Shown: one piece after another, positions 36,598 through 49,652 of the stretch
How the letters are laid out: each line of letters begins with the position of its first letter
Position numbering within the stretch: the first letter of the stretch is position 1
Translations under genes and position numbers: made by a program
From: Rhodoglobus sp.
GTDB taxonomy: Bacteria; Actinomycetota; Actinomycetes; Actinomycetales; Microbacteriaceae
DNA length: 64,000 bases
Direction of reading: 5' to 3'
Assembly: GCA_025463515.1 (NCBI GenBank)
Contig: JAODAQ010000038.1
Location: 1-64,000, forward strand
The notes under the pieces: generated by a model
Told to the model about the DNA's origin: nothing
What the model saw: the letters and a program-made list of their open reading frames with translations, nothing else
Databases searched by the model: none

Positions 36598-37754
36598 ACG
36601 GCGCGTGGGACCTCATCGCGCTCGACTCCCTGCTCACCGACGAGGAGCTGGCGACCCGCGAGCGCGTGCGCGAGTTCGTCGACCGGCGGGTTCGGCCGAA
36701 CATCGCGCGCTGGTTCGAGGACGCGGTGTTCCCCCTCGAGGTCGTGCCCGAGCTGGGCGAGCTGGGTCTGCTCGGAATGCACCTGCAGGGCTACGGCTGC
36801 GCGGGCCGCTCGGCCGTCGAGTACGGCCTGGCGGCGCTCGAGCTCGAGGCCGGCGACTCGGGGCTGCGCACCTTCGTGAGCGTGCAGGGCTCGCTCGCGA
36901 TGAGTGCGATCTCGAAGTTCGGCTCCGAGGAGCAGAAGACCGACTGGCTGCCGCGCCTGGCGAAGGGCGAGGCGATCGGATGCTTCGGCCTCACCGAGCC
37001 CGACGCGGGCTCCGACCCCGCCGCCATGACCACGACCGCCCGTCTCGTCGGCGACGAGTGGGTGCTCGACGGCGCCAAGCGGTGGATCGGCCTCGCCTCC
37101 GTCGCCCACGTCGCCGTGATCTGGGCGAAGACTGACGACGGCGTGCGGGGCTTCCTCGTGCCGACCGACACCGCTGGCTTTACCGCAACGCCCATCGGCG
37201 GCAAGCTGTCGATGCGCGCGTCGATCCAGTGCGACGTCCTGTTGGACGGCGTCCATCTGCCCGCTGACGCCGTGCTCCCACTGTCGAAGGGGCTTCGCAG
37301 CCCGTTCGAGTGCCTCAACGAGGCGCGCTACGGCATCGCCTGGGGAGCGATGGGCGCCGCGCGCGACAGCTACCTCGCCGCCCTCGAGTACTCGCTCGGC
37401 CGCACGCCGTTCGGCAAGCCGGTCGCGGGCTTCCAGCTCACCCAGCAGAAGCTCGTCGACATGGCGCTCGAGATCGACAAGGGGATGCTGCTCGCCCTCC
37501 ACCTCGGCAGGCTCAAGGATGCCGGGCGCCTGCAGCCCCACCAGATCTCGGTCGGCAAGCTCAACAATGTGCGCGAGGCACTCGCCATCTGCCGTGAGGC
37601 CCGTGCCATCCTCGGCGGGAACGGCATCACGCTCGACTACTCGCCCCTGCGGCACGCCAACAACCTCGAGAGCGTCCGCACGTACGAGGGCACCGACGAG
37701 GTGCACACGCTCGTGCTGGGGCAGCACATCACGGGCATCGCGGCGTTCCGCTAG
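36594..37754 (+). CDS. Acyl-CoA dehydrogenase, glutaryl-CoA dehydrogenase-like
   Basis: This 386-residue FAD enzyme oxidises an acyl-CoA at the alpha-beta position. It has GCFGLTEPDAGSDPAAM (FAD and substrate loop) and the catalytic base Glu365 in YEGTDEVH, the position used by glutaryl- and short-chain enzymes. RYGIAWGAMGAARDS is close to the glutaryl-CoA dehydrogenase signature. If it is a true glutaryl-CoA dehydrogenase it makes crotonyl-CoA in lysine or tryptophan breakdown. It overlaps the upstream gene by 4 bp and the convergent antiporter gene by 4 bp. Confidence 0.88.
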   Translation: MNGAWDLIALDSLLTDEELATRERVREFVDRRVRPNIARWFEDAVFPLEVVPELGELGLLGMHLQGYGCAGRSAVEYGLAALELEAGDSGLRTFVSVQGSLAMSAISKFGSEEQKTDWLPRLAKGEAIGCFGLTEPDAGSDPAAMTTTARLVGDEWVLDGAKRWIGLASVAHVAVIWAKTDDGVRGFLVPTDTAGFTATPIGGKLSMRASIQCDVLLDGVHLPADAVLPLSKGLRSPFECLNEARYGIAWGAMGAARDSYLAALEYSLGRTPFGKPVAGFQLTQQKLVDMALEIDKGMLLALHLGRLKDAGRLQPHQISVGKLNNVREALAICREARAILGGNGITLDYSPLRHANNLESVRTYEGTDEVHTLVLGQHITGIAAFR

Positions 37755-38959
37755 GCGGCGGGAGCCTCCGCGGAGGACTCGGCGGACTCGGCGGCGAGGC
37801 GGCGGTTTCGCACGATGGTCTTGAACCACGCGGCATCCGGGATTCTGGACAGCAGCGGCCCCGCGATCACCGTGATGAGCACATAGGCCGTGGCGAGCGG
37901 CGCGAGGCGGGGCTCGACGGCGGCGCCCGCGAGACCGGCGATCACTATCGAGAACTCGCCTCGCGGCGTGAGGGCGAAGCCCGTTCTCCAGCGGCCGGGG
38001 ATGCCGATACCGGCGCGCTTGGCCGCGAGGTAGCCCGTGAGCGTCTTCGTGCCCATCGTCAGCACCGCGAGGATGAGGGCGGGCAGTAGTGCGGGCACGA
38101 TGTCCGCCGGGTCCGTGGCGATCCCGAAGAAGACGAAGAACACCGTCGCGAAGAGGTCGCGCAAGGGGGCGAGCACGATTGTCGCGTTGTGGGCGACCTG
38201 GCCGGAGATCGCGATGCCGACGAGGAACGCGCCGACTGCCGCCGACACCTTCGCCTCGTCCGCGAGCCCGGCGACGAGCATCGTGAGCCCGAGGACGCCC
38301 AGGAGGAGCGGTTCGGGCAGGTTGGCCGGGAACAGGCGCGAGAGCACCTTGCCGAACCGCAGCGCGATGAACAGGATCACCACCACGACGCTCACGGCGA
38401 TGACGACGGTCGTGGCGCCCTGTAGCACGCCCTCGCCGATCACGAGCGCCGAGAGCACGGGCAGGTAGAAGGCCATCGCCAGGTCTTCGATGACGAGGAC
38501 CGACAGGATGACCGGGGTCTCCCGGTTGCCGAGCCGCTTCAGGTCTCGTAGCACCTTCGCGATCACCCCGGAGGACGACACCCAGGTCACACCGGCCAGC
38601 GTGACCGCCGCGACCGGCCCCCAGCCGAGCACGAGGGCGAAGAGGGCGCCGGGCAGCGCGTTGAGCAGGGCGTCGAGCAGCCCCGCGACGCGCGCCTGCC
38701 GGAGGTTGCGCACGAGCTCCGTGGGGGAGTACTCGAGCCCGAGCATCGCGAGGAGCAGGATGACCCCGATCTCGGAGCCCACCTCGAAGAAGTCCTGGCT
38801 CGCATCGAGCGGGAAGAAGCTGCCGTGCCCCACGGCGAGGCCCGCGATCAGGTACAGCGGGATGGGCGAGACCCCGAATCGGATCGCCAGGCGACCGAGC
38901 AGGCTCAGGACGAGAAGGAGGGCTCCGACTTCGATGAGCAGCAGGGTCGTTTCGTGCAT
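37751..38959 (-). CDS. CPA2-family cation/proton antiporter, KhtU-like
   Basis: This 402-residue membrane protein has about 12 helices, with the CPA2 patterns LLAMLGLEYSPTELVRNLRQA, VTWVSSSGVIAKVL and FALTPRGEFSIVIAGLAG. Bacillus KhtU exports K+ or NH4+ in exchange for protons and is gated by KhtT. The adjacent gene encodes a KhtT-like subunit, so the pair is probably a complete antiporter. It is the last gene of the leftward operon that starts with the lipid genes, an unusual grouping. Confidence 0.87.
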   Translation of the reverse strand: MHETTLLLIEVGALLLVLSLLGRLAIRFGVSPIPLYLIAGLAVGHGSFFPLDASQDFFEVGSEIGVILLLAMLGLEYSPTELVRNLRQARVAGLLDALLNALPGALFALVLGWGPVAAVTLAGVTWVSSSGVIAKVLRDLKRLGNRETPVILSVLVIEDLAMAFYLPVLSALVIGEGVLQGATTVVIAVSVVVVILFIALRFGKVLSRLFPANLPEPLLLGVLGLTMLVAGLADEAKVSAAVGAFLVGIAISGQVAHNATIVLAPLRDLFATVFFVFFGIATDPADIVPALLPALILAVLTMGTKTLTGYLAAKRAGIGIPGRWRTGFALTPRGEFSIVIAGLAGAAVEPRLAPLATAYVLITVIAGPLLSRIPDAAWFKTIVRNRRLAAESAESSAEAPAA

Positions 38960-38966
38960 GGGCGGC

Positions 38967-39461
38967 TTAGCTCGGCCCGCGGTCGATGAGCTTGCTGAGC
39001 TTGTCGAGGCCCTGCCGCGTGCCGACGGCCACGATGACGTCGCCGCTCTCGAGCAGCACGTCGGGCGTGGGAGAGGGGATGATCTCGGTGCCGCGCGCGA
39101 TGGCCACGATCGACGAGCTCGTGAGCGTGCGCGCCTTCGTATGGCCCATGGGGCGGCCGATGAACTTCGAGTCGAAGGGGAGCGAGATCTCCTCCGTGAA
39201 CAGGCCGGGGATCTTCTCGCTGAGCCCCGAGAGGCGGCTGAGCGCGATCGAGGCGCCGAGGAGCTCGGCCAGGGCGGCCGCCTCGTCGTCGGTCAGCGCG
39301 ACCGTGTCGGTCGAGGCATCCGGGTCGTCGATGTCGAACAGCGCGATGTCGCGCTCGCCGGAGCGCTGTGAGACGACGCTCACGCGCCTGCCGCTCGCGG
39401 TGATGACGTCGTTGCGCACCCCGATCCCGGGGAGGTCGACGCGCTCGATGCGAACAGTCAC
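38967..39461 (-). CDS. KhtT-like TrkA-C-domain regulatory subunit of the antiporter
   Basis: This 164-residue protein begins VTVRIERVDLPGIGVRNDVITA, the KhtT-type N-terminal domain. It ends in a TrkA-C (RCK-C) domain (about residues 75-164) with SIVAIARGTEIIPSPTPDVLLESGD split over the usual strands. In B. subtilis this subunit gates the antiporter in response to pH and cyclic di-AMP. The GTG at 39461 overlaps the stop of the ferritin-like gene (GTGA), and the antiporter starts 7 bp after its stop. Confidence 0.85.
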   Translation of the reverse strand: MTVRIERVDLPGIGVRNDVITASGRRVSVVSQRSGERDIALFDIDDPDASTDTVALTDDEAAALAELLGASIALSRLSGLSEKIPGLFTEEISLPFDSKFIGRPMGHTKARTLTSSSIVAIARGTEIIPSPTPDVLLESGDVIVAVGTRQGLDKLSKLIDRGPS

Positions 39462-40264
39462 GCCGCGATGGGCGCTGAGACGCCGTACTTCTTCATCGAG
39501 GTCTCGACGATGGTCAGGCCCTCGAGGCCGGGCATCCGGGAGATGTGCTCGTCGAGCTTGCGGATCTCCCGCAGGCCCTCCTCGCCGGCGAAGATGTGGC
39601 TCATCACGTGGTTGACCTCGGCGGGCTCCATGACGCTCGAGCCGACCGGGCCCCAGGCGTTCTTCAGGGCGAAGCGGGCGAGTACCTGCGCCTTCTTGCT
39701 CTTGGCGAGGCGGTCTCTTGCCTGCGTGGCGTAGAAGGCCACGTGGCGGGCCTCCTGCTTCGCGATGCGGCGCAGCAGCTCGGCAAGCACGGGGTGCTGC
39801 TCGAGATCGGCCATCCGGTTGTAGGCGGCGACGGCAGACCACTCGTTGGCGGCGCCCCAGATCATGTGCACCGCGATGAAGTCCTTGCCCACGATGTTTC
39901 CGAGCAGCGACTGCTTGATCGGGTCGAGGCGGTCCTTCCAGCCGAGCTTGAGGCGCGTGGCCTTGAGCTGGTCGAAGTCGAGGGTGATGTCGTGGGCGCC
40001 GAGCACCGCGGAGAGCGCCTCGCCGTGCCAGAACTCCTCGCGGTTCCACATCGTCATGAAGGCGGAGACGTCGGCCTCCTTGTGCGAGGGGGTGACGAGC
40101 AGGTCGCGCAGGTAGCAGACCGTGTGGTACTCGATGTCGGCCATGTACCGGATGCTGCGGAGGGTCGCCTCGGGCAGGGGATTGCTCTTGAACTGGTCGA
40201 AATCCAGGTCGCCCCAGACCACCTTCTTCGAGGTGCTCGTGTACTTGTCGATGTCAAACGCCAT
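39458..40264 (-). CDS. Ferritin-like diiron protein with all six ligands (desaturase or oxygenase candidate)
   Basis: This 268-residue soluble all-helical protein has the complete carboxylate-bridged diiron set: Glu45 (DIEYH), Glu77 and His80 (EFWH), Glu141 (ANEW), and Glu171 with His174 (EARH). The order E, ExxH, E, ExxH is that of acyl-ACP desaturases and related oxygenases. It is encoded between the acyl reductase-HAD fusion (11-bp overlap) and KhtT (4-bp overlap), so it is likely to act on a lipid chain. Possible roles are acyl or alkyl desaturation, including vinyl-ether formation. Compare the ligand-poor paralogue at 42593-43399. Confidence 0.8.
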   Translation of the reverse strand: MAFDIDKYTSTSKKVVWGDLDFDQFKSNPLPEATLRSIRYMADIEYHTVCYLRDLLVTPSHKEADVSAFMTMWNREEFWHGEALSAVLGAHDITLDFDQLKATRLKLGWKDRLDPIKQSLLGNIVGKDFIAVHMIWGAANEWSAVAAYNRMADLEQHPVLAELLRRIAKQEARHVAFYATQARDRLAKSKKAQVLARFALKNAWGPVGSSVMEPAEVNHVMSHIFAGEEGLREIRKLDEHISRMPGLEGLTIVETSMKKYGVSAPIAA

Positions 40265-42596
40265 GGGATGCCCCTTCTACTGCGGATGATTCGGAGTCAC
40301 TGCTCTGAACGCCTGCCGCTTTGCGCTTCCAGTCCAGCACATTCCAGTGCTTCTCCTTGGCGTGGCGGTAGAGATTGATGTCCGGATTCACGGCATTGGG
40401 ATTCCCGACCAGCTGCAGCCAGACGAGGTCTGCATGGTTGTCACCGTACCCGTAGGAGCCGTCGAGGTCGAAACCGTTCTGCGCGGCGTAGTGGCGCAGC
40501 CAGGCGGCGCGGGCCTCGTCCACGAGCGGGGGGTCGGCGAGGAAGCCCGTCAGCACACCGTCGCGCTCGTGCATCCGGCCGGCCACCACCTCGTCGAAGT
40601 AGGGCAGGAAGGGCGTGACGGTCAAGTCGATGGAGCCCGTCACGAGGATCGTGCGGTGGCCGGCGTCCCGGTGCTCCTGCACGCGCTTGAGGGCGTCGGG
40701 CAGGGCGCGGCGCAGCATCGCCCGGCCGAACGGGCCGCGCACCTGGCGCTCGATCTCGCTCACCTTGAAGCCCTTGTAGCGGCGCATGAAGGTGCGGATG
40801 AACTCGCCGCGGTCACGGCGCTCCGCACGCCAGTACTTGCGCAGCGAGAAGGTGAAGTTCGCGAGGTCGTGGGCGACGCGGGAGCGCGGGACGGTACCGG
40901 CCCACAGGGTGAGGTACTGCTTCACGAGGTTCGACTCGAGCACGGTGCCCTCGAGGTCGAACACGGCGACCACATCGGTGCGCTCGGGGAGGACCTTCTG
41001 CGCCTTGGCCTTGGCCGAGGGTCGCTTGCCGAACGCGCGCGTGAGCGTCGTCACGGCGGGGAAGTGCACTTCCTGCCAGTACTTCTCCCACTCGATGTCG
41101 TTGACGTCGAAGCCCTCGTCCTCCTGGACCTCCTTCGGCAGCGACGCGAGCAGCTTGCGGGTGTTCGTGTCGTCGAAGATGATCTCGGTCTGCACGTAGG
41201 CGCGGTAGAGCTCGGTGAACGCCCGGAGCTGCTGCAGGCCGTGCTTGCCCTTGCGGACGGTGTCGAGCCATTCCCGGGTGCGCTTGGTCGTGGGCATCCG
41301 CTCGATGAGCTTCTCGGCGCGCACCACCTGGTTCTCGCGCTTCTCGAGGGCGCGCTCGACCTTCTGGCCGCCGGGGAAGCGCCACTTCGGAACGATGATG
41401 TCGCCCTTTTCGTCGGGCAGGGGGTTGTCGACGAAGTAGCGGTTGACGTTCTCGTACATGCGGTGGAACGGCAGCGGGTTGGTCTTGCCCGAGACGACCT
41501 GGAAGTACTCGGCGGCGTTCGGCTGCGCCGGGCGCGCGGCGGCGGCGAGCGCGGCGTTGACCACGAAGTCGACGGGGATCACATCGAGGATCGAGTCGGG
41601 CAGGCCCGGGAAGTCGGGCAGCTGGCCGCGGCCGTACGCGATGATGAGCGGGTCGGCGACCTTGAAGCCGTCGATCCAGCCGGGGAACGGGTGCTTGAGC
41701 GAGCTCTCGATGATGCTCGGGCGCACGATCGAGAGGCGGTGGCCGGCCTGTGACCACAGCTCCTCCGCGGCGCGCTCGGCGAAGGCCTTGGTGAGCGTGT
41801 AGACGTCGGTCCAGCCGAGGGACTCGGCGCGGGTGCGGCCGTAGTCGACGAGGCGCTCGCGCACCCACTCGGTGCGTGCGGCCTCGGCGAACCCGGCGAC
41901 GGCCTGCGGGCCGGTCTTGCCGTGGCGCGCCTTCGCGCGGTTGAGCTGCTCGCGCAGGGCCTGCGGCTCACGGGACTCGAGCTCGACGCGCGCCCGGGCC
42001 GACTTGGCGGCCTCGTACTCCGCGCGCCAGTCGACGTTGTGGGTGAGGGATGCCTCGGGGGCGATGCCCTTGCGGATCCCGCCGACGTAGGCCGTGGAGA
42101 TGTGCACCACGTGCGGGTCGCTCTTGCTCGCCAGGAGCGAGCCGTAGACGCCGTACGCTCCGCCGACGTTGGTGTCGAACGCCTCGTCGATCGGCGGGTC
42201 GAACGACACGGTAGAGGCTGAGTGGATGACGACGTCGATGTCGTCGGGCAGCACGCCGACGTTGCCGAGCGAGCCCTCGTGGGCGGTGACGCGCTTCGCG
42301 AACTCCTTGCGCGCCTTCTCCTCGCCGCCGACCGACTCGATCCAGTTCTTGAACACCGGCTTGCGCAGCAGCCCCGCGAGGCGGGCCTCGCCGGTCTGGC
42401 TGCCCTTGCCGCGGACGAGCAGCGTCATTCGCGTGCCGGGGTGAGAGAAGAGGAGCCGCTCGAGGATGGCCTGGCCGACGAAGCCCGTGCCTCCGGTGAG
42501 GAAGATGTGCTCGTTGGTGAGGACGCCGCCGGTAGCCGCTGCCTTCTTGGGCACCGCCTTGCGCGTGGTGGTCTTGGCAGCGGGGGAGGTCGTCAC
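40254..42596 (-). CDS. Fatty acyl-CoA/ACP reductase (SDR-e type) fused to a HAD-IB phosphatase domain
   Basis: This 780-residue protein joins two enzymes. Residues 1-25 are a Lys/Ala/Thr tail. Residues 26 to about 420 form an extended SDR of the fatty-acyl (thioester) reductase group, with cofactor loop TGGTGFVG (Gly35-Gly41) and catalytic Tyr266 and Lys270 (YTLTK). A linker follows, then a SerB-like HAD-IB domain (about 540-760) with Asp547 in FDLEGT, the LVTGS motif and Asp719 in GDNHAD. Expected reactions are acyl thioester to aldehyde or alcohol, and phosphate removal from a lipid intermediate. The GTG at 42596 overlaps the upstream gene stop. Confidence 0.87.
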   Translation of the reverse strand: MTTSPAAKTTTRKAVPKKAAATGGVLTNEHIFLTGGTGFVGQAILERLLFSHPGTRMTLLVRGKGSQTGEARLAGLLRKPVFKNWIESVGGEEKARKEFAKRVTAHEGSLGNVGVLPDDIDVVIHSASTVSFDPPIDEAFDTNVGGAYGVYGSLLASKSDPHVVHISTAYVGGIRKGIAPEASLTHNVDWRAEYEAAKSARARVELESREPQALREQLNRAKARHGKTGPQAVAGFAEAARTEWVRERLVDYGRTRAESLGWTDVYTLTKAFAERAAEELWSQAGHRLSIVRPSIIESSLKHPFPGWIDGFKVADPLIIAYGRGQLPDFPGLPDSILDVIPVDFVVNAALAAAARPAQPNAAEYFQVVSGKTNPLPFHRMYENVNRYFVDNPLPDEKGDIIVPKWRFPGGQKVERALEKRENQVVRAEKLIERMPTTKRTREWLDTVRKGKHGLQQLRAFTELYRAYVQTEIIFDDTNTRKLLASLPKEVQEDEGFDVNDIEWEKYWQEVHFPAVTTLTRAFGKRPSAKAKAQKVLPERTDVVAVFDLEGTVLESNLVKQYLTLWAGTVPRSRVAHDLANFTFSLRKYWRAERRDRGEFIRTFMRRYKGFKVSEIERQVRGPFGRAMLRRALPDALKRVQEHRDAGHRTILVTGSIDLTVTPFLPYFDEVVAGRMHERDGVLTGFLADPPLVDEARAAWLRHYAAQNGFDLDGSYGYGDNHADLVWLQLVGNPNAVNPDINLYRHAKEKHWNVLDWKRKAAGVQSSDSESSAVEGASHGV

Positions 42597-43399
42597 AGCT
42601 GGGCGGCCTTTCGGATGAGCGACAAGCCGGACTGGCCGGGGAGCGTGTCGATGCGGGCGTCGAGTTCGGCGACGAGCTCGCGGGCGGAACCGAAGACACG
42701 GTCGAAGAAGAAGGCCGTCTCCTCTCGCGGTTCTGCCTTCGCGCCGATCGGCCACGGGGTCTTGGTGAGTCGCTTGCGGGTGAGCTTGCGCGCCTGCTTC
42801 GACTCGGTGAGGCGGTAGCGGGACTGCGCCTCGAAGAAGGCGAGCTGGCGCTGCTTGAGCTCGGTGAACTTCTCCATCGTCTTCGCCAGCTGGGGGTTGT
42901 TCTCGAGTGCGGCGAGGCGCGCGTACGCGACCTGGCTGAGCCACGTGTCGATCGTGCCGAGCGTCATGTGCACGGCGATCATCGGGATGCCGATGATGTT
43001 GGCCACGATCGACTCGCGGATGGTGCGCTCCGACGGGGTGATGAACGGTGCGCGGTCGACGTCGGTGCCCTCGGGCTGGTGGGCGAGGCCGATCTGCTCG
43101 AAGGCGTCGGCGATCCAGTACTTCTCGAAGGCCCAGGTCGTGAGGAACGCGGTGATCCGGGCGTCCTTGTGCGTGGCCGTGACGAGCACGCTGCGCAGGT
43201 GAGTCATGGTGGCGCGCTCGATGATCTGGAGGTAGCGGATGAGCCGCAGGCCCTCGGGGCTCAGGGGGTTGGTGCGGTACTCCTCGAGGCCCAGCTCCTC
43301 CCGGTGGGAACCCGCGGCTTCGCGCGCGTACTCCCGAACATCGAAGTCGGGGGCCGGGAATCTCATGATGTCCACGGACGCCTCTTTATGTTCCGGCAT
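42593..43399 (-). CDS. Ferritin-like paralogue that lost five of six metal ligands
   Basis: This 268-residue helical protein aligns along its length with the diiron protein at 39458-40264 (e.g. RLIRYLQIIERATMTHLRSVLVTATHKD against RSIRYMADIEYHTV). Glu61 is kept. The other ligand positions carry Lys93, Ile96, Thr152, Lys182 and Gln185 in place of Glu, His, Glu, Glu and His. It therefore cannot hold the same diiron centre and may be a structural or regulatory partner. It is the first gene of the leftward operon. The ATG is at 43399; an alternative in-frame ATG lies at 43366. Confidence 0.8.
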   Translation of the reverse strand: MPEHKEASVDIMRFPAPDFDVREYAREAAGSHREELGLEEYRTNPLSPEGLRLIRYLQIIERATMTHLRSVLVTATHKDARITAFLTTWAFEKYWIADAFEQIGLAHQPEGTDVDRAPFITPSERTIRESIVANIIGIPMIAVHMTLGTIDTWLSQVAYARLAALENNPQLAKTMEKFTELKQRQLAFFEAQSRYRLTESKQARKLTRKRLTKTPWPIGAKAEPREETAFFFDRVFGSARELVAELDARIDTLPGQSGLSLIRKAAQL

Positions 43400-43450
43400 C
43401 CGTATTACCTCCAGGGGCTGGTAAGAGTCGGGTCAAGTGTACCCAATCGT

Positions 43451-43469
43451 CGCTACGGGACCCGTAGCG
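43451..43469. promoter_or_regulatory. Perfect 19-bp palindrome in the divergent promoter of the lipid cluster
   Basis: CGCTACGGG (43451-43459), A, CCCGTAGCG (43461-43469) is a perfect inverted repeat in the 83-bp gap between the two divergent operons. It lies 13 bp before the SDR start. Length and symmetry suit a TetR-like dimer binding site. No regulator gene is adjacent. Confidence 0.7.
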
Positions 43470-43482
43470 TAATGTATCCGTC

Positions 43483-44295
43483 ATGGCTACGGCTCTCATC
43501 ACGGGCGGCACATCCGGCATCGGCGCCGCATTCGCCCGGCAGCTGGCCGCCCAGGGGATGGACCTCGTGCTCGTGGCGCGCGACGCGGGCCGCCTCGAGA
43601 CCGCTGCGGCGGAGTTGCATGCCGCTTCGGGAATCAATGTCGAGACCCTCAGCGCAGACCTGGCGGACCGCAAGGATGTCGCCAGGGTCGTCGCCCGCAT
43701 CGACGACGCCTCCCGGCCGATCGACCTGCTCATCAACAACGCCGGCTTCGGCGTCCACACCTCGCTGCTGTCCGCGGACACCTCGCACCACGAACATGCC
43801 TTCGAGGTTATGTGTCGCGCAGTGCTGGTGCTCGGCGGGGCAGCCGGCCGGACGATGAAGGCGCGGGGGAGCGGCTCGATCATCAACGTCTCGAGCCTGC
43901 AGACGTACCTCGCGACCGGGTCGTACGCGGCGATGAAGGCGTGGGTCACGGCGTACAGCCAGAGCCTCTCCGTCCAGCTCCGGGGCACGGGCGTGACGGT
44001 CACCGCAGTGCTGCCCGGCTGGGTGCGCACCGAGTGGCACGAGCGCGCGGGGGTGCGGCGCAGCTCACTGCCCGGGTTCCTCTGGAGCGAGCCCGAGAAC
44101 GTCGCGCGCATCGCGCTGCGGGATGCCCGGCGCGGCAGAGTCGTCTCCATACCCACTGTTCGCTACCGGGTGCTCGGGTGGTTTGCCCGTCACCTGCCGT
44201 TGCGGGCCATCCGGTCGATCTCGGCGGGGATCTCCTCAAGCCGAACCGACGATGCCTCCGAACCATCCACTGTGACCACGGAGAAGAAGAGCTGA
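43483..44295 (+). CDS. Short-chain dehydrogenase, candidate acyl/alkyl-DHAP reductase
   Basis: This 270-residue classical SDR has the cofactor loop TGGTSGIG (residues 7-14), NNAG, Ser in INVSSLQ, and the catalytic Tyr148 and Lys152 (SYAAMKAW). A C-terminal tail after 230 is polar. Its place as first gene before an acyltransferase and an AGPS homologue suggests that it reduces the ketone of 1-alkyl- or 1-acyl-dihydroxyacetone phosphate, the job of the SDR PexRAP in animals. That assignment is inference; the fold itself is certain. The stop overlaps the acyltransferase start by one base. Confidence 0.85.
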   Translation: MATALITGGTSGIGAAFARQLAAQGMDLVLVARDAGRLETAAAELHAASGINVETLSADLADRKDVARVVARIDDASRPIDLLINNAGFGVHTSLLSADTSHHEHAFEVMCRAVLVLGGAAGRTMKARGSGSIINVSSLQTYLATGSYAAMKAWVTAYSQSLSVQLRGTGVTVTAVLPGWVRTEWHERAGVRRSSLPGFLWSEPENVARIALRDARRGRVVSIPTVRYRVLGWFARHLPLRAIRSISAGISSSRTDDASEPSTVTTEKKS

Positions 44296-44984
44296 TGGAC
44301 CGCTTCACCTCCCCGGGTGTCGCGCGCGTGCGCAAGGTAGCGCAGCGCGGGATGCTCAAGCCCCTGGTCTGGCGGCTGGTGCGCGTCACGACGAAGGGCG
44401 AGGAGGACATCAAGGACCTCGACGCGCCCTTCATCGTCGTCGCCAACCACTCGAGCCATCTGGATGCCCCGCTCGTGATCGGCGCCCTCCCGTACCGTCT
44501 CGCCCGGTATCTGGCAGCGGGTGCCGCCGCCGACTACTTCTTCGACGTGCAGTGGCGCAAATGGCTCACCACGCTGTTCTTCAACGCCTTCGCGATCGAG
44601 CGCAACTCCGAGGGCAAGCGCGGCGGATCGTCGAAGGCACTGCTCGAGCGCAAGGTGCCGCTGCTGATCTTCCCCGAGGGCGGCCGCTCGAAGACCGGCG
44701 TCATGGGGCGCTTCAAGCCCGGCGCCGCTGCACTCTCGATGGCGACCAAGGTGCCGTGCCTCCCGATCGCGCTGGTCGGCGCGAGCGCGGCGATGCCGCG
44801 GGGCGTGAGCTGGCCCAAGCGCGGGCGGTACCCCGTGACTGTAGTGTTTGGCGCGCCGATGCTGGCGGAAGCCGGCGAAACGGCGGACAATTTCTCGACT
44901 CGTCTAGCGGCAGAAGTCCGCAGACTGCACGAAACCGTGTCGCCAATGCCGGCGCACTCTCAGAAGGGAACTGCACATGACTGA
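44295..44984 (+). CDS. PlsC-like lysophospholipid acyltransferase
   Basis: This 229-residue enzyme transfers an acyl chain to a glycerol-phosphate lipid. It has the catalytic HX4D motif (His52 to Asp57 in NHSSHLD), the FPEGGRSKTG motif near 127 that binds phosphate, and PIALVGA. One weak membrane-associated N-terminal helix is likely. The ATG at 44295 overlaps the SDR stop, and its stop lies 8 bp inside the AGPS-like gene. It may acylate alkyl-glycerol-3-phosphate or make acyl-DHAP. Confidence 0.87.
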   Translation: MDRFTSPGVARVRKVAQRGMLKPLVWRLVRVTTKGEEDIKDLDAPFIVVANHSSHLDAPLVIGALPYRLARYLAAGAAADYFFDVQWRKWLTTLFFNAFAIERNSEGKRGGSSKALLERKVPLLIFPEGGRSKTGVMGRFKPGAAALSMATKVPCLPIALVGASAAMPRGVSWPKRGRYPVTVVFGAPMLAEAGETADNFSTRLAAEVRRLHETVSPMPAHSQKGTAHD

Positions 44985-46818
44985 CGTCAAGCACATGAAG
45001 TGGTGGGGCTGGGGCGTCGACGGTGTGGGGTTCCACTTCGAGGACAAGCCCGGCTTCGCGCCGTTCGTCCAGTTCGCGGTCGGCCTCGACCTGCTCACGG
45101 CCAAGCGCGCGGGCGAGCCGTCCTTCGACGAGCTCAAGGTGGGCAAGTCCAACGCGACGGCCGCCTTCGTCTCCGCGCTCACGAAGATCGTCGGCGCCGA
45201 CAACATCACCACGGACGACATGGCCCGCGTCGTGCACACCTACGGCAAGAGCATCCGGGATCTCATGCGCGTTCGCGGCAACGAGATCCTCCGCAGCCCC
45301 GACGTGGTCATCTACCCGGCCGACGAGGCCGAGGTGCAGGCCATCGTGGATGCCGCGGTCGCGGCGAACGCCGTCATCATCCCGTTCGGCGGCGGCAGCA
45401 ACATCGGCGGCAGCCTCGAGCCGCTGCCCGAGGAGAAGCGCACGATCGTGTCGCTCGACCTCGGCCGCTTGCGCAAGGTCGTCTCGATCGACGCAGAGTC
45501 GGGCCTCGCCCGCATCCAGGCCGGAGCGCAGGGCCCCGACCTCGAGGAGCAGCTCAACCAGCAGGGCTGGACCATCGGGCACTTCCCCGACAGCTTCACC
45601 CACTCGACCATCGGCGGCTGGGTCGCGACCCGCTCGTCCGGCATGCAGTCGGACAAGTACGGCGACATCGCCGACATCGCGCGCGGACTGCGCGTGGTGC
45701 GGCCCGGCGGGCAGCTCGTGCTGCGCCCGCTGCCGTCGACGTCGAGCGGCCCCTCGGTCCGCGAGATGATCCTCGGCTCCGAGGGGCGCCTCGGCGTCAT
45801 CACCGAGGTCACCGCCCAGGTGCACCGCATTCCCGAGAAGCGCGACGTGTACGCGTACTTCTTCCCGAACTGGGAGGCGGGCATCAAGGCCATGCAGCAG
45901 ATCTCCGAGTCGGATGCCGCACCGTCGATCACCCGCATCAGCGACGCCCGCGAGACCGCCTTCACGCTCGCCACGAGCAAGGACCGCAAGGGCCTCGACA
46001 AGTTCATGGCCGGCACGGTGCTGCCGTGGATCATGGGCCGCAAGTGGGGCAAGGAGAACCTCGACCAGATCTGCATCTCGTTCATCGCGTACGAGGGCAG
46101 CACCGAGCACGCCAAGCGGCAGCGCAAGCTCGTCGAGAGGATGATCCGGGCGAACGGCGGCCTGACCATCATCGGCACGGGCCCCGGCATCCTCTACGAC
46201 CAGAAGAAGTTCGACACCCCCGACCTGCGCGACTTCCTGCTCGACATGGGCGCCGCCGGCGACGTGTCGGAGACGGCCGCGCCGTGGTCGAAGCTCAACC
46301 AGGTGCACGACGCGGCCTACGCCGCGGCCCAGGGCGCGTACGACCAGATCGGCATAAAGGGCTGGATCATGTCGCACATGTCGCACTCGTACCACTCCGG
46401 TGCGTGCCTGTACTTCACGTTCGCCTTCGTCTTCGACAAAGACCCGATCGCCGAGTACAACGTGGTGAAGAACGCCATCCAGCAGTCGTTCGTCGACAAC
46501 GAGGCGACGATCTCGCACCACCACGGAGTCGGCCTCGAGCACTCGCCGTGGCTCGCCGAGGACATCTCCCCGGAGGGCGTGAAGATCATGAGCGGCCTGT
46601 TCGCCTCGGCCGACGCCGGCAACAACTTCAACCCGGGCAAGATCCTGCCGCGGGCGGCGGCGAAGGCCGCGCCGGCGAGGGCCGCGACGCGCGCCCCGGC
46701 AGCGAAGGCCTCGGCAGCGAAGGCCTCGGCAGCGACGGCGACGGCCGCTCCCGCGAAGGCCGCTCCCAAGGCCGCCGCGAAGGCCCCGGCCGCGCGCAAG
46801 CCCGCCGCGACGAAGTAG
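44977..46818 (+). CDS. Alkyldihydroxyacetonephosphate synthase (AGPS) homologue, FAD-dependent
   Basis: AGPS swaps the acyl chain of acyl-DHAP for a fatty alcohol, forming the ether bond. This 613-residue protein begins with MKWWGWG (residues 7-13; human AGPS has MKWNGWG). It has the FAD pyrophosphate loop IPFGGGSN near 137-145, GHFPDSFTHSTIGGWVATR near 198-216, SYHSGACLYF with Tyr472, and HHH at 514-516, the triad essential in mammalian AGPS. The end (about 562-613) is an Ala/Lys/Pro repeat tail. D-lactate or glycolate oxidases share the fold but not the MKW-GWG and HHH motifs. It overlaps the acyltransferase gene by 8 bp. Confidence 0.85.
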   Translation: MTDVKHMKWWGWGVDGVGFHFEDKPGFAPFVQFAVGLDLLTAKRAGEPSFDELKVGKSNATAAFVSALTKIVGADNITTDDMARVVHTYGKSIRDLMRVRGNEILRSPDVVIYPADEAEVQAIVDAAVAANAVIIPFGGGSNIGGSLEPLPEEKRTIVSLDLGRLRKVVSIDAESGLARIQAGAQGPDLEEQLNQQGWTIGHFPDSFTHSTIGGWVATRSSGMQSDKYGDIADIARGLRVVRPGGQLVLRPLPSTSSGPSVREMILGSEGRLGVITEVTAQVHRIPEKRDVYAYFFPNWEAGIKAMQQISESDAAPSITRISDARETAFTLATSKDRKGLDKFMAGTVLPWIMGRKWGKENLDQICISFIAYEGSTEHAKRQRKLVERMIRANGGLTIIGTGPGILYDQKKFDTPDLRDFLLDMGAAGDVSETAAPWSKLNQVHDAAYAAAQGAYDQIGIKGWIMSHMSHSYHSGACLYFTFAFVFDKDPIAEYNVVKNAIQQSFVDNEATISHHHGVGLEHSPWLAEDISPEGVKIMSGLFASADAGNNFNPGKILPRAAAKAAPARAATRAPAAKASAAKASAATATAAPAKAAPKAAAKAPAARKPAATK

Positions 46819-47073: not shown

Positions 47074-47123
47074 ATGCGGGAGACGGGGCGGTGCGGTGCG
47101 GCGGCCGCGGTGCGACGTCGGGA

Positions 47124-47187
47124 CGCCGGGACGGAGGGGCGCCGGGACGGAGGGACGCCGGGGCGGAGGGACGCCGGGACGGAGAGG
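47124..47187. repeat. Four tandem copies of a 16-bp unit CGCCGGGACGGAGGGR
   Basis: Units at 47124-47139, 47140-47155, 47156-47171 and 47172-47187 differ at one to two bases each. The array ends 11 bp before the stop codon of the TetR gene on the minus strand. Copy number may vary between strains. Confidence 0.8.
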
Positions 47188-47198
47188 CGGCCGGCAGG

Positions 47199-47768
47199 CT
47201 ACGCCGCGAACGCGGGCCAGAGCAGGGCGAGCACGGAGTCGACCCACTCCTCGCCGGTGGGCCGGCCGCGGATCAGCTCCGCGACGACGACGCCGAGCAG
47301 GATGCTCATGGCCAGCTCCACGTCGACATCGGCCTTGATCTCGCCGGCGAGGGCGCGCTCGCGCAGGTCGGCGCGCAGCGGGCGGGTCGAGTTGCGGATC
47401 ATCCCGAGCAGGAGCTCGGTGAACTGCGGGTCCTCGTTCATGATCACGGCAGCGACGGTGCCCCGGCCGACCACGTCCTCGATGGTGTCGCGGGCGTGCC
47501 GCAGCACCCAGCGCAGTGAGTCTTGCGCGGTCATCCCGACCGGGAACTCGACGGTCGTCGCGGCCGACGTCACGGCCGCAGTGAGCAGCGACTCGCGGTT
47601 CTCGTAGCGGCGGTAGATCGTCGTCTTGGCGACACCGGACGCGGCGGCGACCGACTCGATGCTGACCGCGAGCGGCCCGCGGCTGCGGAGGAGGGTGAGC
47701 GCGGCATCGAAGATGCGGGCGTCTACTTCGGGGTGCCGCGGGGTCCGAGCGGCAGTCGCCTGGGTCAC
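47199..47768 (-). CDS. TetR-family regulator
   Basis: This 189-residue repressor has an N-terminal TetR helix-turn-helix (residues 18-60, ARIFDAALTLLRSRGPLAVSIESVAAASGVAKTTIYRRY in pieces) and a C-terminal ligand and dimer domain (TetR_C like, GMIRNSTRPLRADLRERALAGEI). The GTG at 47768 follows GGAGGCTCG; upstream in-frame starts would add an unrelated stretch. A perfect palindrome at 47802-47821 lies in its promoter. Its other targets are unknown; the divergent ice-binding gene is one candidate. Confidence 0.88.
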   Translation of the reverse strand: MTQATAARTPRHPEVDARIFDAALTLLRSRGPLAVSIESVAAASGVAKTTIYRRYENRESLLTAAVTSAATTVEFPVGMTAQDSLRWVLRHARDTIEDVVGRGTVAAVIMNEDPQFTELLLGMIRNSTRPLRADLRERALAGEIKADVDVELAMSILLGVVVAELIRGRPTGEEWVDSVLALLWPAFAA

Positions 47769-47801
47769 CGAGCCTCCGTCCGCCGCGCGGGGATGACCGC
47801 G

Positions 47802-47821
47802 ATTGCACCTGGTTGTGCAAT
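47802..47821. promoter_or_regulatory. Operator-like palindrome ATTGCAC-N6-GTGCAAT upstream of tetR
   Basis: Perfect 7-bp arms at 47802-47808 and 47815-47821 with a 6-base spacer, 34 bp upstream of the TetR start codon. Such a site suits TetR autoregulation. The 227-bp gap to the ice-binding gene contains no other feature I can name. Confidence 0.65.
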
Positions 47822-47995
47822 GATACGTGGCCGATTCGCCGAAAATCCGCCATACCCCCCGAATGGCCAACCCCTTGACTGCCGGGGGTAGAACGTTCAG
47901 TCTGAGCACAAGACCGGCTGAAACAACCCGAGGGATGCACATCCCTGCTGATCATGAATGGTGCGCTCCACCTCATGAATTGACAGGAATCCCTC

Positions 47996-49039
47996 ATGAC
48001 TGTATTTCGCCGTACCTCCATAACCCTTGCCGTGGCACTCGGGCTCGCCGCCGCCGTGGCCACCGCCGCGAGCAGCGCGAGCGCGACCGCGGGCGTCCCT
48101 GGGGACGCCGACTTCCTCGGGACAGCGCAGAGCCTCGCGATTCTGGGCGGCCAGACCGTCGCGAACACCGGGCCCTCGGTGATCACGGGAGATGTCGCCC
48201 TCGCGCCCGGGCTCGCCGCCGCCGTGACCGGCTTTCCGCCGGGCCTCGTCAACGGCACGATCTACACGCCGCCCGCAGCGCAGGCGACGACAGGCCAGAT
48301 CGACGCGAGCAATGCCTACGACGCGCTCGAAGCACTGGGCGGGACCTCCGTGCCCACCGAGCTCGGCGGGCTCGAGTACGGCCCGGGCGTGTACCACGGC
48401 GCTCCGGCCGCGAACACCCTGCAGCTCACCGGGACGGTCGTCCTCAACGGCACCGCCGACGACATCTTCGTGTTCCAGTCGAGCTCGACGCTCATCACCG
48501 GCGCGGGCAGCGTCGTCGCCCTCGTGGGCGGCGCGCGGGCGTGCAACGTGTTCTGGCAGGTGGGCAGCTCGGCGACCCTCGGTACGGACTCGCTGTTCGC
48601 GGGCACTCTGATCGCCCGCACCTCGGTCACCGCGACGACGAACGCGACGGTCGGCTCCGGCACTGACGAGGGCGCCCGGCTGCTCGCCCTGGACGGCTCG
48701 GTCACGCTGGACAGCAACGTGATCGGCTCGCCCGCGGCCTGCACTACGGCGACTGGCGGACTCACGCCCGGCGCGGCGGGAATCCCGATCCCGGCAGGAA
48801 CCCTCACTACCGTTACGGCCAGCGCCGCGGTGTCGTTCGCGGCGGCCGCTGCCGCGCGCGCCGCGAACACCCCGGCTGCCGCGGGAGGCGGAGGCGCCGC
48901 ACCGGCGGGAGCCCAGCTCGCGGCGACCGCACTCGACGTCCGCCGCCCGGCTGCCGTCGGAACTCTCGCTCTCCTCGTGGGTGTCGTACTGCTCGCGTCC
49001 GCCTCGCTCGTGGGCCGCCGCCGGACGACTAGGCCGTAA
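47996..49039 (+). CDS. DUF3494 ice-binding (antifreeze) protein, membrane- or wall-anchored
   Basis: This 347-residue protein has a Sec signal peptide (residues 1 to about 32), then a DUF3494 beta-solenoid (about 35-250; DADFLGTAQSLAILGGQTVAN, SVITGDVALAPG, LVNGTIYTPP, FQSSSTLIT, CNVFWQVGSSATLG, FAGTLIARTSVT). The fold binds ice and slows recrystallisation. An Ala/Gly linker follows, then LAATALDV, a membrane helix (about 320-340) and RRRTTRP. LAATA resembles the class E sortase motif LAxTG with Ala in place of Gly. The ATG at 47996 follows ACAGGAATCCCTC. It supports a cold habitat. Confidence 0.92.
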   Translation: MTVFRRTSITLAVALGLAAAVATAASSASATAGVPGDADFLGTAQSLAILGGQTVANTGPSVITGDVALAPGLAAAVTGFPPGLVNGTIYTPPAAQATTGQIDASNAYDALEALGGTSVPTELGGLEYGPGVYHGAPAANTLQLTGTVVLNGTADDIFVFQSSSTLITGAGSVVALVGGARACNVFWQVGSSATLGTDSLFAGTLIARTSVTATTNATVGSGTDEGARLLALDGSVTLDSNVIGSPAACTTATGGLTPGAAGIPIPAGTLTTVTASAAVSFAAAAAARAANTPAAAGGGGAAPAGAQLAATALDVRRPAAVGTLALLVGVVLLASASLVGRRRTTRP

Positions 49040-49616
49040 GCGCGTCGAGCGTCGCGCGCACGACTGTCCGGATGCTCTCCCGCCGCCGATCCAGGCGAGC
49101 CGTGTCGCCATGCCGGGTGCCCGTGTAGAGGCTGTTGAGGTGGGGGAGCACCTGATACCCGTCGGAAAGCGTGAGGATCGTCAGGAGCAGCTCCTCGGCA
49201 TCCTCGCGCGACAAGTCGGGCACGGCCTCGAGCACGAGGTCGACCTTGCTGATGGAGCGCTCGCGGCGGAACTCCTCCGCGACCGGGGCGTCGAGCTCAA
49301 GGCCCTCCCAGAAGGTGAGGCGAGCGAGCTCGGGATGCGTGCGCTGGTAGTCGAAGACTCGGCCCGCGTAGTCGACGACCGCGTCGATGCCGCTACCGGT
49401 GATCGGCACGGCGTCCATGACCAGCGCCAGCTGGTGGGAGAGCACCTCGCCGAAGAACTGCTCCTTGTTGCCGTAGTACTGGTAGATCCGCTCCTTGTTG
49501 ACGCCGGCGTTCGCCGCGATGCGGTCGACCCTCGCCCCGGCGAGGCCGCGGGCGCTGAACTCGGCAGTTCCCGCGTCGAGGAGGAGCTGCTTCGTGCGCT
49601 CGATGTCCCAGGCCAT
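49029..49616 (-). CDS. TetR-family regulator of the 49705 membrane protein
   Basis: This 195-residue regulator has the TetR DNA-binding domain (residues 5-55, ERTKQLLLDAGTAEFSARG and VDRIAANAGVNKERIYQYYGNKEQFF in pieces) and a C-terminal helical domain. The start is the ATG at 49616 (MAWDIERTK). Two CAAC-N6-GTTG palindromes lie between it and the divergent gene, so it very probably represses both. The 3' end overlaps the convergent ice-binding gene by 11 bp. Confidence 0.88.
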   Translation of the reverse strand: MAWDIERTKQLLLDAGTAEFSARGLAGARVDRIAANAGVNKERIYQYYGNKEQFFGEVLSHQLALVMDAVPITGSGIDAVVDYAGRVFDYQRTHPELARLTFWEGLELDAPVAEEFRRERSISKVDLVLEAVPDLSREDAEELLLTILTLSDGYQVLPHLNSLYTGTRHGDTARLDRRRESIRTVVRATLDALTA

Positions 49617-49636
49617 AATCCGAGCATAGACCAATT

Positions 49637-49652
49637 CCAACTAGATAGTTGC
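49637..49652. promoter_or_regulatory. TetR operator 1, CAACT-N4-AGTTG
   Basis: CAACTAGATAGTTG at 49638-49651 is a perfect palindrome 21 bp upstream of the TetR start codon. It shares CAAC/GTTG half-sites with operator 2. Confidence 0.7.

Follow-up and report, generated by a model that had tools for sequence, protein, structure and literature searches.

A conserved actinobacterial six-gene cluster and its proposed role in aerobic plasmalogen synthesis, with a ferritin-like protein pair as candidate desaturase

Introduction

A cluster of six genes at positions 39458-46818 of a Rhodoglobus sp. contig (JAODAQ010000038.1, assembly GCA_025463515.1, a 3.32-Mb draft genome) probably encodes an aerobic pathway of animal type in which alkyl-ether lipids are made and finally converted to plasmalogens; two ferritin-like proteins, here called FER1 and FER2, are proposed as its desaturase. 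The stretch of DNA analyzed, referred to as the window, comprises the first 64,000 nucleotides of this contig. The parts of the proposal differ in strength. That the cluster encodes an alkyl-ether pathway is well supported, and it is likely that the species carrying it make plasmalogens; FER1/FER2 are the best single candidate for the vinyl-ether desaturase, an unproven role assigned to them tentatively. The proposal draws on gene content, synteny, homology, the conservation of metal ligands and the lack of matches to markers of the known CarF and PlsA enzymes in the genomes searched.

The conserved six-gene cluster, its match to strains with dimethylacetals (DMAs) in their lipid profiles and the FER1/FER2 pair are new. 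Searches of open-licence papers found no genes proposed for the DMAs of Subtercola, and among the titles and abstract openings listed there was no prior report of the cluster or of a soluble di-iron plasmalogen desaturase. Homologues of alkyl-dihydroxyacetone phosphate (alkyl-DHAP) synthase, AGPS, had already been noted in actinobacterial metagenome data (PMC11868695), and the text of a 2022 review names myxobacteria as the striking exception among aerobic bacteria (PMC9131029). The cluster supplies a gene set, a sequenced carrier strain with the reported lipid sign and one gene pair as desaturase candidate, and it may account for plasmalogen signals reported for relatives in which searches for the known genes gave no match. 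If the proposal is true, plasmalogens in aerobes are commoner than thought.

Organization and conservation of the cluster

Open reading frames (ORFs) and Pfam matches define two divergent operons, FER1-FAR/HAD-FER2 on the minus strand and SDR-PlsC-AGPS on the plus strand, where FAR is a fatty-acyl reductase and SDR a short-chain dehydrogenase/reductase:

39458-40264, minus strand: FER1, ferritin-like di-iron protein of 268 amino acids, proposed catalytic desaturase subunit (ligand conservation, fold match)
40254-42596, minus strand: FAR-HAD, fatty-acyl reductase with a fused C-terminal HAD-IB domain (NAD_binding_4, weak Sterile), GTG start at 42596 (Pfam, PDB 7eoz)
42593-43399, minus strand: FER2, FER1 paralogue with metal ligands lost, putative partner subunit free of metal (BLASTP, ligand alignment, AlphaFold)
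43451-43469, no strand: candidate operator, palindrome CGCTACG-N5-CGTAGCG (exact match, divergent promoter)
43483-44295, plus strand: SDR, proposed alkyl-DHAP reductase with a PexRAP-like role (adh_short, synteny)
44295-44984, plus strand: PlsC-like acyltransferase, presumed to act at sn-2 or on DHAP (PF01553, PDB 5kym)
44977-46818, plus strand: AGPS, alkyl-DHAP synthase homologue (PDB 2uuu/4bby, residues)

The two divergent start codons are separated by exactly 83 bp (43400-43482), and the ORFs overlap within each operon, by 8 bp between PlsC and AGPS, 1 bp between SDR and PlsC, 4 bp between FER2 and FAR, and 11 bp between FAR and FER1. An original prediction made from the sequence of the window had described this architecture correctly, and the fatty-acyl reductase, SDR and PlsC-like acyltransferase that it named are all real ORFs where it placed them. 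Its interval, 38967-46818, holds the named genes and begins too early, at a TrkA_C gene outside the system, and its gene list left undescribed the two ferritin-like genes, which are core members of the cluster.

The grouping of these genes is more than chance. A scan of titled genomes with the AGPS alignment yielded 396 stretches encoding relatives, and all six genes stand together in 72 of the best 80 of these (the titled loci), 66 of them in the exact order of the window. SDR and PlsC are present in 80/80 and FAR in 75/80; two loci are interrupted by a contig end, and SDR-PlsC-AGPS stand alone in the stretch in five (one Actinoplanes, two Microlunatus and two Propionibacteriaceae). Carriers of all six genes include Salinibacterium, Herbiconiux, Frigoribacterium, Agreia and Subtercola, as well as Schumannella, Pseudolysinimonas, Amnibacterium, some Streptomyces and Phytoactinopolyspora. 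Among 29 further genomes of relatives an AGPS match was obtained in 14, and 12 of the 13 loci fetched from these contain the complete set; five genomes of the same genus gave no AGPS match.

FER1 and FER2

FER1 and FER2 are paralogues, both of 268 amino acids, with 32% identity (BLASTP E 5e-45), and neither reaches the cut-off of any Pfam family. Below threshold, FER1 scores weakly against rubrerythrin, FA_desaturase_2 and Ferritin_2, and its score against the acyl-ACP desaturase family PF03405 is 17.9 bits, under the cut-off of 22.7. The di-iron ligands E45, E77, H80, E141, E171 and H174, in an E/ExxH/E/ExxH pattern, are intact in 78 of 81 non-redundant FER1 sequences, and two of the three exceptions (L183 and L184) are additional FER copies next to an intact gene. 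The full ligand set occurs in 0/80 non-redundant FER2 sequences, and the second ligand position, Glu in FER1, is Lys or Arg in all 80. This set excludes L022-L034 (mostly repeats of titled loci), L193 and identical sequences; among all complete FER genes before redundancy removal the six ligands are present in 91/94 FER1 and 0/93 FER2 sequences.

AlphaFold models of FER1 and FER2 are of high confidence, with predicted local distance difference test (pLDDT) values of 85.7 and 90.0, respectively. The top PDB fold for FER1 is 1za0, which is DesA2, an acyl-ACP desaturase of M. tuberculosis (Foldseek E 1.0e-3, probability 1.00, TM 0.56), followed by R2-like oxidases, which match about as well, and plant acyl-ACP desaturases, at E 1.0e-3 and weaker. 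FER2 resembles R2-like oxidases of the R2lox type (Foldseek E 1.3e-2). A relationship of FER1 to CarF was considered and rejected, there being no PF10520 match.

The pairing of the two proteins extends beyond the cluster. Twelve FER loci were fetched separately; one (L193) has the standard order, and among the other 11, outside the standard arrangement, seven contain an adjacent FER1-FER2 pair (L175, L176, L182, L183, L184, L185 and L187), as expected for subunits. The natural reading of such pairs would be a catalytic subunit accompanied by a metal-free twin. No recurring redox partner was found by Pfam across 27 neighbor genes picked from loci of FER, AGPS and Subtercola. The FER pair of L176 does have a flavin-reductase gene in its vicinity, as AGPS has a Pyr_redox gene in L257 and L258. 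The original prediction had suggested that a non-homologous desaturase might hide among the cluster genes, and in FER1/FER2 a plausible candidate is present.

AGPS, FAR-HAD, SDR and PlsC

By its sequence, the AGPS homologue is genuine. Its closest PDB matches in phmmer are 2uuu (E 1.3e-106), an AGPS that we take to be the Dictyostelium enzyme, and the peroxisomal AGPS 4bby (E 2.4e-71), and the next enzyme class is D-lactate dehydrogenase at E 1.4e-20. The ORF begins MTDVKHMKWWGWG and has the HHH triad at residues 514-516, both as predicted originally. Residues H202, R320, R418, Y479, H514, H515 and H516 are conserved in 81/81 sequences (the window plus the 80 loci) and align with H300, R419, R515, Y578 and H615-617 of 4bby, which we assume to be the functional AGPS residues. 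At the position of 4bby L469 there is Ala or Gly, and the window has Val where 4bby has S527. Among the best 80 of the 396 stretches the nearest relatives come from Leifsonia sp. (94%) and Salinibacterium sp. (85%), other flavoprotein matches in the same genome reach 28-30% identity over part of the protein, and a scan with AGPS found no relatives on viral contigs. At its C-terminus the AGPS of the window has a tail of roughly 55 residues rich in Ala, Lys and Pro (46650-46818).

These data bear on the possibility, named beforehand as one that would refute the ether-lipid reading, that the AGPS-like gene encodes a 2-hydroxyacid or sugar oxidase, here as part of a general oxidative lipid-catabolism locus. 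The FAD_binding_4/FAD-oxidase_C architecture is indeed common to AGPS and to glycolate/lactate dehydrogenases. A gap of more than 80 orders of magnitude in E-value to the next enzyme class and the invariance of all seven mapped residues stand against this explanation, which is strongly disfavored and was rejected, so the ether-lipid reading survives at the level of sequence.

The neighboring enzymes complete the set expected from the animal pathway. FAR-HAD scores 152.8 bits against NAD_binding_4 (cut-off 20.1) and 32.0 bits against Sterile, under the cut-off of 35.4; its best PDB match, the fatty acyl-CoA reductase 7eoz (E 1.2e-46), covers query residues 27-517 and both regions, and the Y and K of its YxxxK motif are invariant in 76/76 sequences. 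The activity of the fused HAD domain is uncertain, since the usual Asp-x-Asp is replaced by Asp-x-Glu in all 75 sequences that cover the domain; the relative L034 retains DLDGT. SDR matches adh_short (Pfam, E 1e-40), and an SDR of the same type accompanies PlsC and AGPS in every titled locus, nearly always directly before PlsC. PlsC itself matches PF01553 (E 1e-18) and, in the PDB, the 1-acylglycerol-3-phosphate acyltransferase 5kym (E 3e-12). In two Subtercola loci (L107 and L111) a second PlsC and a protein with Lar_N, the N-terminal domain of lactate racemase, lie between FER1 and FAR (Pfam on the L107 copies), and in L100 a second PlsC lies between FAR and FER2.

A further explanation of the same genes is that the fatty alcohols or aldehydes are turned into waxes or alkanes, FER1 being an oxygenase of the aldehyde-deformylating type and AGPS a side activity. 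FAR and a ferritin-like di-iron protein do share one operon; on the other side, SDR and PlsC accompany AGPS in every titled locus and FAR in nearly all of them, carriers of the cluster are known with DMAs, and FER1 matches no aldehyde-decarbonylase family in Pfam or among the 50 fold matches listed. Wax or alkane synthesis is therefore very improbable.

Dimethylacetals in carriers of the cluster

DMAs are a sign of vinyl-ether lipids, and the evidence for them was taken from published fatty-acid profiles of cluster-carrying relatives and related genera. In Subtercola, which is aerobic, they have been reported since 2000 (cited in PMC5945732 and PMC7472656). The profile of Subtercola vilae DB165 lists iso-16:0 DMA at 17.0% and smaller amounts of anteiso DMAs, iso-16:0 DMA amounts to 6.9-13.3% and anteiso-15:0 DMA to 9.7-11.0% in S. 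frigoramans, S. boreus and S. lobariae, and a statement on the genus Agreia puts DMA at 4% or less (PMC5945732). A peak described as anteiso-15:0 aldehyde/DMA is reported together with C14:0 2OH in Frigoribacterium adelgis D8 and the type strain of F. faeni, two other Frigoribacterium species being said in the same text not to show this (PMC12823222); F. endophyticum and F. salinisoli are reported without the DMA. The earlier statement that DMAs occur in Microbacteriaceae is therefore right for Subtercola and Frigoribacterium, and species of both genera carry the six genes.

Five DMA-positive carriers can be named from these sources, namely Subtercola vilae DB165, S. boreus, S. lobariae, Agreia and Frigoribacterium faeni, and the six genes, FER1 and FER2 among them, are complete in their loci (L107, L111, L113, L094 and L077). 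Genome and lipid data coincide by strain name for S. vilae DB165 (L107); for S. boreus (P27444) the two come from different strains, and the Agreia match is at genus level only. For F. faeni and S. lobariae we assume that the sequenced strain is equivalent to the one measured.

Routine profiles may also conceal part of the signal. Gas chromatography-mass spectrometry (GC-MS) of Kineococcus rubinsiae identified the peak called C14:0 2OH as anteiso-15:0 DMA, and according to the same paper DMAs are named by the MIDI system only when its anaerobe library is used (PMC7472656). MIDI profiles list 2OH-C14:0 at 3.9-15.6% in four Subtercola type strains and none in S. endophyticus (PMC9287328), and Frondihabitans is said to be without DMAs, yet has 14:0 2-OH among its major acids (PMC5945732). 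Because of the GC-MS result and because DMAs are reported in the same four Subtercola species that show 2OH-C14:0, these profiles suggest that "C14:0 2-OH" in routine analyses of these genera is often a misread plasmalogen.

Co-occurrence of FER1 and AGPS

Beyond the cluster, FER1 and AGPS were searched at order level in 148 other genomes, both searches being treated as the same draw since they agree in size and genome labels, with thresholds of E 1e-10 for FER1 and at least 48% identity for AGPS. FER1 was found in 21 genomes, AGPS in 34 and both in 17, so that AGPS is present in 17/21 genomes with FER1 versus 17/127 without (Fisher p 1e-9; by genus p 2e-5; both uncorrected for kinship); FER1 is thus missing from 17 of the AGPS genomes. 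In one genus (g12) all seven FER1 genomes have AGPS, on other contigs or hundreds of kilobases away, and the association in this genus is therefore not mere linkage.

Evidence against the proposal and the main alternative

Several observations weigh against the proposal. The fold match of FER1 is modest, no Foldseek E falling under 0.001. A single FER gene is found in four of the 11 non-standard FER loci (L177-L180, with L178 at a contig end), and Naasia lichenicola has FAR, SDR, PlsC and AGPS with no FER gene within the 10-kb flanks. In the order-level sample, G039 and G072 (genus g13, Agromyces-type) have a FER pair and no AGPS of at least 48% identity (G072 has one at 35%), and FER1 stands by itself in G022 and G058, again with no AGPS at that threshold, the G058 locus lying at a contig end. 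Outside the order, distant FER1 homologues (28-46% identity) occur in 14 of 246 phylum genomes, and AGPS at E 1e-50 is present in 1/14 of these versus 10/57 others (about every fourth genome of the phylum sample), always at 42% identity or less. Distant FER1 genes thus do not track AGPS, and other functions or partners must exist in the broader FER1 family.

Kineococcus is the main counter-example. Nine genomes of genus g18, which includes Kineococcus radiotolerans (G066, with 3 kb identical to plasmid NC_009806.1), have AGPS at 56-57% identity, and FER1 at E 1e-10 was found in no g18 genome, the K. rubinsiae genome being outside that search. The profile of K. rubinsiae lists anteiso-15:0 DMA at 2.9% (PMC7472656), which leaves two explanations: a genome unlike those searched, or a different desaturase in Kineococcus. 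A universal pairing of FER1 with AGPS among aerobic producers of plasmalogens is therefore improbable. On the lipid side, the six genes are all present in Salinibacterium metalliresistens H3M29-4 (L041), whose published profile names three acids totaling 94% and no DMA (PMC10713820), and the main text on Herbiconiux gentiana (L072) and H. oxytropis (L108) mentions neither DMA nor 2-OH acids (PMC10011130). Because of the library dependence of MIDI, these are weak negatives.

The foremost alternative holds that AGPS leads to saturated alkyl-ether lipids, that FER1/FER2 have another role such as acyl desaturation or hydroxylation, and that any vinyl ether is made by an enzyme encoded outside the cluster. 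It would accommodate Kineococcus, the FER pairs and single FER1 genes without a close AGPS, the behavior of distant FER1 genes and a FER1 fold nearest to acyl-ACP desaturases and R2-like oxidases. Against it stand the synteny of FER1/FER2 with FAR and AGPS in 72/80 loci, the presence of both genes in all five DMA-positive Microbacteriaceae whose locus was available and the lack of any CarF or PlsA-marker match in the DMA-positive Microbacteriaceae genomes searched. On balance this alternative appears rather unlikely, and a desaturase role of FER1/FER2 at the end of an ether-lipid pathway is retained as the preferred reading.

Proposed pathway

The reactions and the FER1/FER2 complex outlined here are predictions from gene content and homology. 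FAR would produce fatty alcohols by reduction of branched acyl chains, acyl-DHAP would come from an acyltransferase, and AGPS would exchange the acyl chain for the alcohol to give alkyl-DHAP. This would be reduced by SDR to 1-alkyl-glycerol-3-phosphate and acylated at sn-2 by PlsC, with head groups (phosphatidylglycerol, cardiolipin or glycolipid) added by housekeeping enzymes. Finally, FER1 together with FER2, O2 and a reductant would take the C1' and C2' hydrogens from the alkyl chain to generate the vinyl ether.

Divergent promoter and flanking genes

The candidate operator CGCTACG-N5-CGTAGCG occurs only once in the window, even when two mismatches are allowed, and exact copies are found in 22/80 titled loci, each of which has one between FER2 and SDR. 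Many other loci retain a CGTATCGTAAG-like element immediately upstream of the SDR start, perhaps the -10 element of a leaderless transcript; a promoter scan of the divergent region yielded nothing.

The TrkA_C gene (38967-39461) shares 4 bp with FER1 and lies beside a Na+/H+ exchanger gene (37751-38959). Membership of these two genes in the system was rejected, as a TrkA_C match occurs in just 7/80 titled loci. Downstream of AGPS, short GC-rich repeats with gacgccgggacggagg-type units are found at 47080-47200. The ORF at 47996-49039 resembles, as we judge it, a DUF3494 ice-binding protein, which would fit a cold habitat, and it is flanked on both sides by genes presumed from a motif to encode TetR-like regulators (47199-47942 and 49029-49640).

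Comparison with known ether-lipid and plasmalogen systems

A close functional parallel is the animal peroxisomal pathway (FAR1, GNPAT, AGPS, PexRAP/DHRS7B and PEDS1/TMEM189), with which the cluster has FAR, acyltransferase, AGPS and SDR activities in common by homology. It differs in being encoded in operons, in the FAR-HAD fusion, in having a soluble di-iron pair as candidate desaturase and in lacking a CarF/PEDS1 profile match. As originally predicted, no CarF-type desaturase was found: PF10520 has no match in any of 18 genomes searched, which include three Subtercola, Agreia pratensis, F. faeni, Naasia and that of the window, and 14 controls were also silent. The profile does match 9/246 actinobacterial genomes (L195-L203; E down to 1e-58), eight of them in one family; AGPS at E 1e-50 is present in 1/9 of these, and eight of the nine CarF loci were fetched, none with AGPS or FAR nearby. 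Outside myxobacteria, true CarF is listed only for Leptospira in the text of the 2022 review (PMC9131029).

Among bacteria, Myxococcus xanthus, an aerobe with iso-branched plasmalogens, combines an AGPS homologue with FAR and acyltransferase domains in the operon MXAN_1676-1674 (PMC9131029). It differs, as described, in its FAR-acyltransferase fusion, in ElbD as the main route and in desaturation by CarF, for which no counterpart was found here. The myxococcal elb operon is alike in uniting a FAR domain, an acyltransferase and a HAD protein (ElbB), and differs in that ElbD is a multidomain FAR-ACS-ACP-AT protein; Pfam detected no such architecture in the cluster, where FAR is fused to HAD and the acyltransferase is separate. 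The PlsA/PlsR system of anaerobes leads to the same plasmalogen end product, there by direct ester reduction. Its marker PF09989 (DUF2229), which we take to be part of PlsA, was found in 0/18 genomes and in 4/14 controls. Some orders of actinobacteria are recorded with plsA/plsR in a 2022 review (PMC9702350).

Acyl-ACP desaturases (DesA2 and the plant stearoyl-ACP desaturase) resemble FER1 in the E, ExxH, E, ExxH pattern and are among its nearest folds; FER1 differs from them in falling under the PF03405 cut-off and in being accompanied by a paralogue without a metal site. It is conceivable, and put forward here as a tentative proposal, that FER1/FER2 represent a third, independently evolved route to the vinyl ether, in which, at the end of a pathway of aerobic actinobacteria that otherwise resembles the animal one, the membrane enzyme CarF/PEDS1 gives way to a soluble heteromeric di-iron desaturase and FER2 serves as a metal-free, lysine-bridged partner by analogy with the hydroxylases of bacterial multicomponent monooxygenases.

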